The notes under the pieces are model-generated. The model was given only the letters and a program-made list of their open reading frames with translations, had not been told where the DNA came from and did no database searches. Source: Acidobacteriota bacterium (GTDB lineage: Bacteria; Acidobacteriota; Vicinamibacteria; Vicinamibacterales; UBA2999). From it: DNA of 48,697 bases. Location of the stretch: contig JAEUQR010000193.1 in the NCBI GenBank assembly GCA_016789705.1, positions 1 through 48,697 on the forward strand. Reading direction: 5' to 3'. Position 1 is the first letter of the stretch, and every line of letters begins with the position of its first letter. Below are positions 31,578 to 36,406 of this stretch, piece by piece. Both the position numbers and the translations under genes were made by a program.

Positions 31578-32960
31578 TCACTTCCAGAGCTTCCGCCACC
31601 ACGGCGCGACGTCGGCTGCGGGATCGGCCGGCGGCGCCACCGGCCCGGCGCCCTGCCGGCGGCGGATGTCGGCCAGGTGCCAGCCGGTGAGTGACGCGAG
31701 TGCTTCGGCTTCGCGCACCTGGCGCGCGCGCACCTCGCGGCGGTAGGTCTCGCCCTCGGCACACGCCATCGGACCGGTCCACGCGTGTCGCAGCACGTAG
31801 CGTCCCTGGAAGTTCGTGCGGTCACCGGTTTCCTGGAACACGAGATCCTCCGGGAAGTGCGCCTGGTCGTAGCGCACGTGCAGGCGCGTCACGAAGACGT
31901 CCGCGGCGCCGCCCGGCATGCGGGCGAACGTGGGCCGGGCCCTGTCGCCGGCGCCATCGAGCCACGACACGCCGAGCTGACGGAGTTCGTCGCGCGACAG
32001 CGGATCGGCCGCGCACGGATCGCACCAGCCCATGTCCCACGCGTACTCCAGGAAGACGGCGCGCATGTCTTCACGGCGCACGTGCTGGTCGAACATCGCG
32101 CGGTACATCTTCCCGAACTCCGCCGGGTCCTTCAGGTAGGCGGGGATCTCGACATCGGTCTGGAGCTTCACGGTGCGGTAGTTCGTGCTCTCGACGCGGC
32201 CGCGGCGGGTGAGGGTGTAGACGAAGAGCTCCTGCGCGCCGTCGGCATTCACCATGCCGAGCCGGATCGGCAGCATGAACTTCGGCCACTCGTAGGCCAC
32301 CTGCAGCGGCCTCAGCGTCGAGAACCCGAGCGCCGACTGCTGCTGCAGATTCACCCTGGCGACGAAGAAGCGCATGTTCTGGCGGATGTAACTGCCGAGC
32401 ACCGCCGAGGCACCGGCGGGGATGCGGTAGCCGCTCTCGCGCAGCCACGTCTCGAGTCCGCTGCTCTGCTGCGCCGAGAGGATGAGGATGTCGTATTCGC
32501 CCACGGTGTAGCGCGCCTCGATCGTCACGCCGAGGTGCTTCGCCCGGCGTTCCGCGCGGTCAGCCGCTGGCGACGGGGCCTGCGACGCGCCGAGGCTCAT
32601 CGCCTCGCTCAGGGGGTAACGGCGCGCGCACGGGTCGGCGTCGAAGTACTCGACGAGGCGCGGTGCCGTGTAGGCATCGACGTGCGCGACGAGCGCGGCG
32701 TCGGCCACGTGGATCTGCTCGCGCGTGATGGCCGTCGGCACCGGGATCACCATGGCGAACTCGCGCGGATCGCCGCGGAAGTCGTTGGCCATCGTGAGCA
32801 CCGTGCGGTCGCCGTCGCGGGCGAGCACGACCTGCGAGGCTTTGTTGAAGATCGTGCTGCCGGCGCGTGCCACGTAGAAGCCGCAGAAGGCGGCGGCCGG
32901 CGCGGCAGTAGCGAGCGAGGCGGTGAGGGTGACGAGCAGCAGGGCGATCGGACGTGTCAT
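31578..32960 (-). CDS. DUF2330 exported protein, internal start of the continuous ORF
   Basis: A 460-residue protein if translated from ATG 32960, which has an ideal ribosome site (TGGAGG seven bases upstream) and begins TRPIALLLVTLTASLATAAPAAAFCGFYVARAG. This is a Sec signal peptide followed by the conserved FCGFYV of DUF2330. The family landmarks continue with VVLARDGDRTVLTMANDFRG, EFAMVIPVPTAITREQI, GEYDILILSAQQS and LETWLRESGYRIP. DUF2330 has no assigned function. Family members are usually exported or membrane-anchored, but no C-terminal hydrophobic helix is clear here (it ends WWRKLWK). The internal start, ribosome site and signal peptide together argue that this part is made as its own protein. 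Confidence 0.7.
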   Translation of the reverse strand: MTRPIALLLVTLTASLATAAPAAAFCGFYVARAGSTIFNKASQVVLARDGDRTVLTMANDFRGDPREFAMVIPVPTAITREQIHVADAALVAHVDAYTAPRLVEYFDADPCARRYPLSEAMSLGASQAPSPAADRAERRAKHLGVTIEARYTVGEYDILILSAQQSSGLETWLRESGYRIPAGASAVLGSYIRQNMRFFVARVNLQQQSALGFSTLRPLQVAYEWPKFMLPIRLGMVNADGAQELFVYTLTRRGRVESTNYRTVKLQTDVEIPAYLKDPAEFGKMYRAMFDQHVRREDMRAVFLEYAWDMGWCDPCAADPLSRDELRQLGVSWLDGAGDRARPTFARMPGGAADVFVTRLHVRYDQAHFPEDLVFQETGDRTNFQGRYVLRHAWTGPMACAEGETYRREVRARQVREAEALASLTGWHLADIRRRQGAGPVAPPADPAADVAPWWRKLWK

Positions 32961-33806
32961 CGGGAACCTCCAGTGAAGGCGGGGCAGGGCGAGGGTGCGC
33001 GGCCAGGCGTAGCGATGGCCGGGGAGCAGGCGGTCGATGAGCGGCACGGCGAGCGAGGCCACGGCCAGCGCCCACAGGAAGCCGTTCGGACGGAACAGAC
33101 GGAAGTGCACGTACCAGGCGCCAAAGGCGACGAGCCCCGCGAACAGGACTCGCCCGGCGCGTGAATCCGGCGTCGTCTTCGGGTCGGAGATCATGAAGAA
33201 GCTGAAGAGCAGGAACGCGCCGCTCTCGAGACGGTGCAGCGGAATCGACAGCGGCTCGCCGAGCGCGAGCGATCGGCCGGCGACGAGCGCCGCGTAGGCG
33301 GTGATGAAGGCCAGCGTCACGTCGCTTCGCGCCGAGCGGTGCACCACGGCCAGGCCCGCCGAGGCGATCGCGAACGCGAAGGTGGCGCCCGTGCCCCACT
33401 GCCCGGGCGACACCCACACGGCATCCGTCAGAAGCAGCAGCGCCACGAGGGCGCCGTTCGTCGGGTTGAAGACGTGTTTCCCGCCGACGCGCACGAGGAA
33501 CTTCGAGCCCACCGCGAGGGCCGCGCCCGCGGCCGTCCAGGCGAGGTGGTCCGTGCGCAGGAGCAGGCAGAGCGAGAGCGACGAGATGAGCGCGCTCTTC
33601 GCGCCGGACCGCCACGGCGCGCCGATGCGCCAGTCGCCGAGCCGCTGCACGGCGAGCGCCGTGCCGATGGTCACGGCCGCCTGCGCCGCCGTTACGTCGA
33701 AGGCGAGCGCCACGACCCCGTAGGTCAGCAGCGCGGCCAGCGTGGCGATCTGGCCGTGGCGCGGGTCGGCGGCGATCCAGGCGCGGATGAGGCGGGCTGC
33801 GGGCAT
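31578..33806 (-). CDS. RnfD/NqrB-like membrane protein in frame with DUF2330 (continuous ORF)
   Basis: A 742-codon uninterrupted frame. Residues about 1-282 are a multi-pass membrane domain of the RnfD/NqrB type (KFLVRVGGKHVFNPTNGALVALLLLT, a TGAT motif at about 139-142 that is the position used for covalent FMN attachment in this family, LFSFFMISDPKTTPDSRAG). From residue 283 the frame continues without a stop into a DUF2330 protein that has its own signal peptide. GGAGG precedes the outer ATG at 33806 by nine bases. A real fused protein would put a signal-like helix in the middle. More likely the stop between two genes has been lost and DUF2330 is also made from an internal start. No other Rnf or Nqr subunit is nearby. 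Confidence 0.65.
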   Translation of the reverse strand: MPAARLIRAWIAADPRHGQIATLAALLTYGVVALAFDVTAAQAAVTIGTALAVQRLGDWRIGAPWRSGAKSALISSLSLCLLLRTDHLAWTAAGAALAVGSKFLVRVGGKHVFNPTNGALVALLLLTDAVWVSPGQWGTGATFAFAIASAGLAVVHRSARSDVTLAFITAYAALVAGRSLALGEPLSIPLHRLESGAFLLFSFFMISDPKTTPDSRAGRVLFAGLVAFGAWYVHFRLFRPNGFLWALAVASLAVPLIDRLLPGHRYAWPRTLALPRLHWRFPMTRPIALLLVTLTASLATAAPAAAFCGFYVARAGSTIFNKASQVVLARDGDRTVLTMANDFRGDPREFAMVIPVPTAITREQIHVADAALVAHVDAYTAPRLVEYFDADPCARRYPLSEAMSLGASQAPSPAADRAERRAKHLGVTIEARYTVGEYDILILSAQQSSGLETWLRESGYRIPAGASAVLGSYIRQNMRFFVARVNLQQQSALGFSTLRPLQVAYEWPKFMLPIRLGMVNADGAQELFVYTLTRRGRVESTNYRTVKLQTDVEIPAYLKDPAEFGKMYRAMFDQHVRREDMRAVFLEYAWDMGWCDPCAADPLSRDELRQLGVSWLDGAGDRARPTFARMPGGAADVFVTRLHVRYDQAHFPEDLVFQETGDRTNFQGRYVLRHAWTGPMACAEGETYRREVRARQVREAEALASLTGWHLADIRRRQGAGPVAPPADPAADVAPWWRKLWK

Positions 33807-33908
33807 CGGTGTCGTCCTCCGGAGTGAGAACGGCGGCGCCCGGACTTCTTGCACGGCGGTCCTAGACCCGGGCGGGCCGCCGCCCTCGGCTGCCCAATAT
33901 CACCCGGA

Positions 33909-33920: not shown

Positions 33921-34538
33921 ATGTCGAGCCCCGCCACCCGCCGCGCCCGCGGCCAGTGCACGGCCTTCGATGGCCCCCGCCGCCTCGCGCAGGGGCCGCT
34001 CGCCGAGGTCGTCGCGGCGGCGAAGTTCACGTTCGATCGTTCCCCGCGCGCTTCGCTCCTCATCTTCGAGGACGCCACCGGCGATCTCATCGACGTGGAC
34101 TACAGCGGCACACCCGACGAGGTGCTGGCGCTCATGACGGCGCGCGAACTGCGGCGCGCACGAATCGCCGACGACGCCGACGCGGCGCCGCGCGGGCCGG
34201 GCCGGCCGCGCCTGGGTGTCGTGGCGCGTGAGGTGACGCTGCTGCCGCGGCACTGGCAGTGGCTGAACGGGCAACCGGGCGGCGCGTCGGTGGCGCTGCG
34301 GAAGCTCGTGGACGAGGCACGGAAGCTGCACGCCGGCCGCGATCGCGTGCGCCGCGCGCAGGAGGTGTCGTACCGCTTCATGTCGGCGCTCGCCGGCGAC
34401 CTGCCAGGCTTCGAGGACGCCATCCGCGCGCTCTTCACCGGAGATCCCGCGCGGTTCGACGAACACACGCGGGCCTGGCCGCGCGATGTGCGCACCTACG
34501 CGCGCCAGCTCGCCGCGCCGGCGCTCGGCGAGCGCTAG
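33921..34538 (+). CDS. DUF2239 family protein
   Basis: A 205-residue soluble protein matching DUF2239: CTAFDGPRRLAQGPLAEVV, ASLLIFEDATGDLIDVDYSG, GRPRLGVVAREVTLLPRHWQWLNG, SVALRKLVDEARK and RAQEVSYRFMSALAGDLPGFEDA. The RPRLGV...LLPRHW core with (V/A)ALRKLVDEAR resembles a DNA-binding ribbon-helix-helix-like segment, and members have been described as putative regulators, but the function is unproven. It is transcribed alone, divergent from the RnfD-like gene, with an apparent leaderless promoter. Confidence 0.85.
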   Translation: MSSPATRRARGQCTAFDGPRRLAQGPLAEVVAAAKFTFDRSPRASLLIFEDATGDLIDVDYSGTPDEVLALMTARELRRARIADDADAAPRGPGRPRLGVVAREVTLLPRHWQWLNGQPGGASVALRKLVDEARKLHAGRDRVRRAQEVSYRFMSALAGDLPGFEDAIRALFTGDPARFDEHTRAWPRDVRTYARQLAAPALGER

Positions 34539-34649: not shown

Positions 34650-35837
34650 ATGAAAGTGACTCGACGCGATCTCATCGCCGGCGCCGCGGGCGCCGTCGCA
34701 CTCGCCCGCACCGCGGGCGCACAGACGCCGGCCGATCCGACCAAGGTGCGCGGCACCCCCCCGCGCGCCCTCGGCGATCGCGCCTCCACGGCGCGCGTGC
34801 AGCGCATCGTGCGCGGGCAGGTGGTGTCGAGCACGCCGCTGCACGACCTCATGGGCATCATCACGCCCTCGGACCTGCACTTCGAACGGCATCACGGCGG
34901 CGTGCCGGCCATCGCGCCCGAGACCTACTCGCTGCTCATCCATGGCATGGTCGAGCGGCCGACGATCTTCACGCTGGCGGACCTGAAGCGTTTTCCGTCG
35001 CACTCGCAGATCCACTTCCTGGAATGTTCCGGCAATCTCGGCCGCACGGCCGGGCCCGAGACCACGCCGGGCATGCTGGCCGGCCTCACGAGCACGAGCG
35101 AGTGGACCGGTGTGCGGCTCTCGACGCTGCTCGGCGAGGTGGGCGTGCGGAGCGGCGCCCGCTGGCTGCTGGCGGAAGGTGCGGATGCGGCTGTCCTCAC
35201 GCGCAGCGTGCCGATCGAGAAGGCGCTCGACGACGCGCTCGTCGCCTACGGCCAGAACGGCGAGGCCCTGCGCCCTGAACAGGGCTACCCGGCGCGCCTC
35301 TTCCTGCCCGGCTGGGAAGGCAACGCCAGCGTGAAGTGGCTGCGGCGCCTCGAGGTGTCGGACCAGCCGTTCATGACGCGCGAGGAGACCTCGAAGTACA
35401 CGGAGCCCTTCGCCAACGGCACGTCGCGCCAGTTCAGCTTCCGCATGGACGCGCGCTCGCTCATCACGGCGCCGGCCTTTCCGAACCGGCTCGAACGCGG
35501 CTGGGTCGAGATCACGGGCATCGCGTGGACCGGCGCCGGACGCATCACGCGCGTGGACATCTCGACCGACGGCGGCGCCACCTGGGCGGCCGCCCGGTTG
35601 CAGGAGCCCGTATTGCCGCTCGCGCACACACGCTTCCGCCACATGTGGCAATGGAACGGCGGCGAGGCGGTGCTCATGAGCCGCGCGGTGGACGAAACCG
35701 GTTACATGCAGCCGACCAAGGCCGAACTGCTGGCGCAGCGCGGACCCGGTACGGCCACCTACCACCTCAATCCCATCACCGGCTGGGTGGTGCAGCCCGA
35801 TGGCCGCGTCGTCTACAAGGAGGAGTCGTGGGCATGA
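34650..35837 (+). CDS. soxC: Sulfite dehydrogenase, molybdenum subunit (SoxC-like)
   Basis: A 395-residue Tat-exported (TRRDLIAGAAGAVALA) protein of the sulfite-oxidase family. The molybdenum-cofactor domain has IHFLECSGN with the Mo-ligand cysteine at 126, followed by the dimerisation domain (about 275-385, GWVEITGIAWTGAGRI, RVDISTDGGATW). SoxC with SoxD forms sulfane/sulfite dehydrogenase in thiosulfate oxidation, while SorA with SorB oxidises sulfite alone, and the two are hard to tell apart by sequence. The neighbouring cytochrome c gene overlaps it by four bases. No soxXYZAB is present in the window, which favours stand-alone sulfite oxidation. Length and domain order are normal. Confidence 0.88.
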   Translation: MKVTRRDLIAGAAGAVALARTAGAQTPADPTKVRGTPPRALGDRASTARVQRIVRGQVVSSTPLHDLMGIITPSDLHFERHHGGVPAIAPETYSLLIHGMVERPTIFTLADLKRFPSHSQIHFLECSGNLGRTAGPETTPGMLAGLTSTSEWTGVRLSTLLGEVGVRSGARWLLAEGADAAVLTRSVPIEKALDDALVAYGQNGEALRPEQGYPARLFLPGWEGNASVKWLRRLEVSDQPFMTREETSKYTEPFANGTSRQFSFRMDARSLITAPAFPNRLERGWVEITGIAWTGAGRITRVDISTDGGATWAAARLQEPVLPLAHTRFRHMWQWNGGEAVLMSRAVDETGYMQPTKAELLAQRGPGTATYHLNPITGWVVQPDGRVVYKEESWA

Positions 35838-36406
35838 CGCGCGGGATTCGTCAGGGCGTCTTCGCGGCACTGCTGCTCGCCGCTGCCGGCGCGGCGTTCG
35901 CGCAATCACCAGCCCGTTACGGGCTCGGCCGCGCCGCCACGCCAGCCGAGATCTCGGCCCTCGACATCGACGTGCGCCCGGACGGCGCGGGGCTGCCCGA
36001 CGGCTCCGGTGTCTCGTCTGCCGGCGCGACCATCTACGCGTCGAAGTGTGCGCGGTGCCACGGCGCCACCGGGAAAGAAGGGCCGAACGACGTGCTCGTG
36101 GGCCGCGTGCCCGGTGACGGCTTCCCGTTCGCCGCGGATCCGAAAGTGCCGCACACGATCGGCAACTACTGGCCGTACGCGACGACGGTGTTCGACTACG
36201 TCCGTCGCGCCATGCCGACCACCGCCCCAGGGTCGCTCACGAACGACGAGGTCTATGCGCTCACGGCGTTCCTGCTGCACGCCAACGGCATCATCGAGGC
36301 CGGCGCCGTGATGGACAAGGCGTCGCTGCCGAAGGTGGCGATGCCGGCGCGGAAGTACTTCGTGCCGGACACGCGGACACAGACGGCGGCAAAGCCGAAG
36401 CCGTAA
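35834..36406 (+). CDS. Cytochrome c subunit of sulfite dehydrogenase (SoxD/SorB-like)
   Basis: A 190-residue periplasmic cytochrome with a signal peptide (about 1-23, AFAQS) and one haem-binding motif CARCH (Cys72, Cys75, His76). A distal Met is likely in RRAMPTTAPGSL. The sequence PHTIGNYWPYATTVFDYVRRAMP is characteristic of the SoxD-type c552 subunit. It takes electrons from the molybdenum subunit and passes them to the respiratory chain. It starts inside the stop codon of the upstream gene (ATGA), so the two subunits are made in balanced amounts. Confidence 0.88.
   Translation: MTRGIRQGVFAALLLAAAGAAFAQSPARYGLGRAATPAEISALDIDVRPDGAGLPDGSGVSSAGATIYASKCARCHGATGKEGPNDVLVGRVPGDGFPFAADPKVPHTIGNYWPYATTVFDYVRRAMPTTAPGSLTNDEVYALTAFLLHANGIIEAGAVMDKASLPKVAMPARKYFVPDTRTQTAAKPKP

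Follow-up and report, generated by a model that had tools for sequence, protein, structure and literature searches.

The RnfD-like and DUF2330 genes that share one open frame in the window (by which we mean the whole 48,697-nucleotide stretch of Acidobacteriota DNA analysed here) are a conserved two-gene module and not a one-off fusion. The two genes were adjacent in 88 of 90 scored loci from about ten phyla, and in 87 of these 90 the RnfD-like gene lay directly upstream of the DUF2330 gene. One locus (L066:8001-10183) showed the reverse order, with DUF2330 first and the RnfD-like gene second, at about 57-60% identity, and an RnfD-like neighbour was not found in the two remaining scored DUF2330 loci. 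We lean towards reading the pair as a coupled module, in which a riboflavin- or quinone-linked membrane protein would work with periplasmic DUF2330 and the join in the window would be an ordinary run-on.

The relatives came from a scan limited to one genome per species, which put their number at more than 570 at the least; 80 of these were kept for analysis. Those kept were recorded as Acidobacteria, Nitrospira, Proteobacteria, Deltaproteobacteria/Myxococcota and Rokuibacteriota, and further to Verrucomicrobia, Krumholzibacteriota, Eisenbacteria, Dadabacteria and Hydrogenedentes. For junction scoring, 90 non-redundant loci were assembled from this species-level scan and from a phylum search. 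No third gene family was broadly kept around the pair, the other neighbours being clade-specific, and neither Rnf nor Nqr partner genes were kept beside it. An earlier note on this DNA had proposed that the RnfD-like protein, having no Rnf or Nqr genes next to it, might be an orphan with a new partner; this is supported, the partner being DUF2330. The search for plasmid copies gave only one DUF2330 match and one RnfD-like match, and PADLOC and PHROGs gave zero matches. A literature search found no open-access paper naming DUF2330.

In the window, a single stop-free frame of 742 codons runs on the minus strand from an ATG at 33806-33804 to a TGA at 31580-31578, with zero in-frame stop codons at the junction between the two parts (the DNA across the join reads TGGAGGTTCCCGATG). 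A GGAGG ribosome-binding site (33816-33820, minus strand) lies 9 nt before the first ATG. The RnfD-like membrane part covers residues 1-282 (32961-33806, minus strand), with a conserved core at residues 14-268, and its residues 134-261 match the Pfam family NQR2_RnfD_RnfE (PF03116; E 8e-12, 45.5 bits, cut-off 27.7). An internal ATG at 32960-32958, preceded at a spacing of 6 by a second GGAGG (32971-32967), opens the DUF2330 coding sequence, which has 460 codons plus the TGA (31578-32960, minus strand). It begins with a signal peptide (residues 283-306; 32889-32960, minus strand) that has small residues at -3 and -1 and is predicted to be cut after MTRPIALLLVTLTASLATAAPAAA and before FCGFYV. 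The DUF2330 family (PF10092) matches residues 303-657 (E 6e-82, 275 bits against a cut-off of 24.7). The continuous frame and the internal ribosome site, ATG and signal peptide described in the earlier note are thus borne out by the sequence, and its two domain assignments by Pfam. Taken alone, a stop-free frame spanning a GC-rich junction is unremarkable. A divergent DUF2239 gene (33921-34538) and the RnfD-like gene have a short upstream region in common. The span 34650-36406 holds a molybdopterin oxidoreductase gene (Oxidored_molyb, Mo-co_dimer) and, after it, a probable c-type cytochrome gene (CxxCH).

The RnfD-like part also gave profile matches to RnfD and NqrB chains, although the RnfD models themselves scored only 35-36 bits, far under their cut-offs of 207-415. 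AlphaFold modelled the fused 742-residue protein with a pLDDT of 82.9 and a pTM of 0.83; confidence was low in the linker, where the signal peptide ends, in a loop near residues 398-425 and at the C-terminus. Judged from the pTM alone, a value this high for a two-domain protein suggests that the domains are fixed relative to each other. In this model, residues 1-264 matched RnfD (Z 22-23) and NqrB (Z 20-21), with a Z of 23.4 over 253 aligned residues for 8rbq_D. The family shares with RnfD and NqrB this fold, the FNP and FFM..DP motifs and residues of the riboflavin pocket. NqrB contacts riboflavin through T162, N200, N203, F342 and D346 (PMC10643135). An HMM alignment placed H111, N114, F204 and D208 of the window protein at N200, N203, F342 and D346, and through the alignments to NqrB and RsxD, S75 (S/T in the family) fell at T162. 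These equivalents (span 33183-33584, minus strand), namely S/T, H, N, F and D, were found in 50, 50, 50, 48 and 50 of 50 sequences, respectively, the position of NqrB N200 being always His in the RnfD-like family.

The family differs from RnfD and NqrB in its partner, DUF2330, and in the loss of about 75 residues that carry the flavinylated threonine. In E. coli RsxD this segment contains DGISQATPL, and it was absent from every aligned homologue. The earlier note had suggested that FMN is attached at a TGAT threonine. The TGAT of the window (residues 139-142; 33381-33392, minus strand) falls after the gap left by the FMN loop, outside the flavinylation loop of RnfD and NqrB, and is unconserved, one congener having TGAS; we rejected it as a flavinylation site on its position and lack of conservation. 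With the loop missing and TGAT unconserved, covalent FMN of the RnfD type is unlikely, and non-covalent riboflavin is possible, to judge from the pocket residues retained. The gene apbE was considered as a linked gene and rejected: ApbE was present in 16 of 17 module genomes, one genome that is 99% complete gave no match, and the gene is not on the contig of the window.

The residues of the pocket also bear on the nature of the membrane protein. It could be a channel or transporter that carries no redox cofactor, like the urea and ammonium transporters of this fold, and DUF2330 would then be a receptor or lid on its periplasmic side; the model does match urea transporters and AmtB (Z about 11-12), and the covalent FMN loop has been lost. 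However, RnfD and NqrB match far better, and conservation persists at the positions with which NqrB holds riboflavin, so that we consider a transporter fairly unlikely. The redox role of the module would itself rest on these conserved residues.

We compared the internal start across the fused loci. At the internal start, 17 of the 18 fused loci had a ribosome-site match of five or more bases, which is far from chance, the figure for matched controls within genes being 8%; starts in loci other than the window were picked by best ribosome-site score, and the controls by the same rule inside DUF2330 genes. Depending on the lineage, the site is translated as WR, KG, KE, EE, ER or GG, a variety which argues that its bases are conserved and not the amino acids that they encode. 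In all four species of the genus the TGGAGG at this site is invariant, AGG being a rare arginine codon in these genes. The signal-peptidase site is conserved as well (columns 304 and 306 are nearly always A/S/V/T), and positive charge is highest just ahead of the signal peptide, as in a cytoplasmic tail. The lack of a stop codon would give a long product and the kept internal site a short DUF2330 product too, so that one mRNA probably yields both. The earlier note had offered fusion or dual product as a choice; the long and short products from one mRNA are the part that stands, and the either/or is unsupported, as both products are expected. With signal-peptidase cleavage, the two translation routes should yield equivalent end products.

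The junction itself drifts between loci. In the 87 loci with the RnfD-like gene upstream, mostly MAGs in which frameshifts may imitate joins, the genes overlapped by 1 or 4 bases in 29, the RnfD-like stop lay deeper inside DUF2330 in another frame in 23, it preceded the DUF2330 start and left a gap in 17, and it was absent, the frames coinciding, in 18. Run-ons in frame (18) and out of frame (23) were about equally common, so that in-frame joins are roughly as frequent as a chance choice of frame would make them. On the DUF2330 tree, loci switched between joined and separate at least 13 times; in Nitrospira, close relatives differ in this respect. Unrelated lineages have in-frame joins as well, one of them in the isolate Nitrospira moscoviensis, whose genome is complete. 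Whether the homologues are separate or fused, a point raised in the earlier note, thus has a double answer: joins recur, and fusion is not specific. Overlaps of 1 and 4 bases are also a main class among overlapping, translationally coupled pairs (PMC6728339, PMC10666635), which often encode the subunits of a complex (PMC10666635); in contrast with such pairs, many lineages have here lost the upstream stop in frame and retained the ribosome site of the downstream gene. Drift of this kind is what an unconstrained tail of the first gene gives, and selection for fusion is not needed to account for it.

Closer to the window, the same open frame was present in three other species of the genus, at 89, 79 and 74% identity. 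We counted changes by codon position in the unconserved linker (32973-33002, minus strand), which begins where conservation of the RnfD-like part ends and leads up to the internal ribosome site. The ratio of changes at positions 1 and 2 to those at position 3 was 0.75-1.1 in the linker, a value that rests on only 16 codons in four congeneric species, against 0.22-0.35 in the RnfD-like core. Changes in the linker are thus about equal between these positions and give no sign of protein-level selection. The linker also carries one codon indel among the congeners, across which the frame remains open.

The join may still have been selected in this genus, the tether being what matters, with the 742-residue protein working uncut and DUF2330 anchored to the membrane. 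The frame is kept in the four congeners despite the indel, the fused model is confident overall, and another, related RnfD-like protein has an in-frame join too, with an FG-GAP protein. However, the linker lacks protein-level constraint, the ribosome site and the cleavage site are both kept, and joins appear and vanish about as frame chance predicts. A selected fusion seems to us quite unlikely.

The mature DUF2330 chain (31581-32888, minus strand) has invariant cysteines at residues 308, 393, 595, 598 and 682, the first of them being the second residue of the predicted mature chain. The third and fourth belong to a WCDPC at 594-598, for which we considered and rejected a thioredoxin motif, since in the model it is not directly followed by a helix and the matches listed include no thioredoxin fold. 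The best fold match of DUF2330 was baculovirus P35 in two models (m95a34b3918a1 and m4c86cfccc6f1), with Z of 10.3 and 11.5 over about 220 residues, an rmsd of 4.5-5 and low TM-scores (about 0.16-0.4); the P35-like fold is predicted over residues 309-662. P35 and P49 proteins, along with a giant-virus protein, also led the matches in a viral library. M1 aminopeptidase, ribophorin and inter-alpha-inhibitor matches ranked below P35 and may reflect a shared sheet arrangement. By sequence, no genome scored above the cut-off of the P35 profile (PF02331), the best matches being short (10-14 bits) and none lying in the genome of the window, and profile searches connected DUF2330 neither with P35 nor with a solved structure. 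While the two models give it an overall beta fold resembling that of P35, DUF2330 differs from P35 in being bacterial, exported and equipped with five invariant cysteines, with no detected sequence relation. On these models, the resemblance is a lead and not membership of the P35 family.

This resemblance would allow DUF2330 to act on cysteine proteases of the periplasm in the manner of P35, as their suicide inhibitor or as a sensor of them, with the membrane protein serving only to anchor or recharge it. The amino terminus of P35 enters the caspase site (PMC3375223), which gives interest to the invariant cysteine near the start of the mature chain, and P35 and its family head the fold matches in both models and in the viral library. 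Against such an inhibitor stand the missing sequence-profile link, the low TM-scores, a poorly modelled N-terminus and a reactive loop that was not identified; moreover, a common fold does not show function. We regard it as very unlikely. Finally, loss of a real stop codon through sequencing or assembly error is hardly credible: although the relatives are mostly metagenome assemblies, and one RnfD-like gene (locus L005, genome G042) is split across two frames by assembly error or decay, the frame is open in all four species of the genus, so that the join is not a sequencing slip, and a separate in-frame join is present in the genome of an isolate.

The coupled module that we favour would work as follows. 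The first gene would encode a compact membrane protein of the NqrB/RnfD fold, without the covalent-FMN loop and with residues of the riboflavin pocket kept, and the second an exported DUF2330 protein, the two genes being presumably coupled in translation. In the genus of the window, a frame or stop change in the unconstrained tail of the first gene would have removed its stop codon. Some ribosomes would then make a long precursor, and others would initiate at the internal site that has been retained, with DUF2330 as their only product. In the precursor, the DUF2330 signal peptide would be the last membrane segment, where signal peptidase should cut, so that both routes would lead to the same two proteins. 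The two proteins are predicted to form a complex, which may carry electrons between quinone pool, membrane riboflavin and periplasmic DUF2330. A stronger version, in which a widespread membrane redox module has a minimal NqrB/RnfD-fold protein that uses non-covalent riboflavin alone and sends electrons through the membrane to an exported partner of P35 fold, DUF2330 being a bacterial relative of P35, is improbable as a whole.

Other compact RnfD-like proteins are paired in a comparable manner. In two-subunit Nqr/Rnf-like systems, a membrane protein like NqrB or RnfD works with a partner outside the cytosol (PMC8238504, PMC10979944). The RnfD-like/DUF2330 pair resembles them in having such a partner, and their flavinylation site is also unconserved, but their NAD-binding C-terminal domain, flavinylated NqrC/RnfG partner and apbE link have no counterpart in it. 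Within the same taxonomic order, RnfD-like proteins of about 30% identity were found encoded beside FG-GAP/UnbV_ASPIC genes, and in L007:1408-3651 one frame runs through an RnfD-like domain and an FG-GAP protein, a join like that of the window with another partner. Orphan RnfD-like genes without DUF2330 were observed directly after FG-GAP-type genes in L008, L009, L010, L013, L017 and L021, and Pfam confirmed FG-GAP and UnbV_ASPIC domains in L009, L017 and L021. On the Metabacillus plasmid pB218 (L141:4396-5783), a redoxin gene overlaps by 4 bases an RnfD-like gene annotated as RnfABCDGE subunit D. These orphan proteins, at about 30% identity and paired with partners other than DUF2330, have the same FMN-loop deletion, the same His/Asn/Asp motifs and an adjacent secreted partner. 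A similar pair, named UnbU/UnbV, is known from enediyne gene clusters; a literature search on UnbU/UnbV found nothing. From the FG-GAP and redoxin pairings, it seems to be a general pattern that a compact RnfD-like protein is matched with an exported one, DUF2330 being one such partner.

The pair, and not the fusion, is thus the part worth following, as a module that spans about ten phyla and is undescribed. Its junctions provide a clean natural case in which the position of a stop codon drifts while the downstream start is kept. If confirmed by structure, the resemblance to P35 would provide a bacterial relative for a viral family of caspase inhibitors. If the riboflavin reading is true, the module would show what the NqrB/RnfD core is capable of without covalent FMN or the rest of a complex, which would bear on the evolution of Rnf and Nqr.
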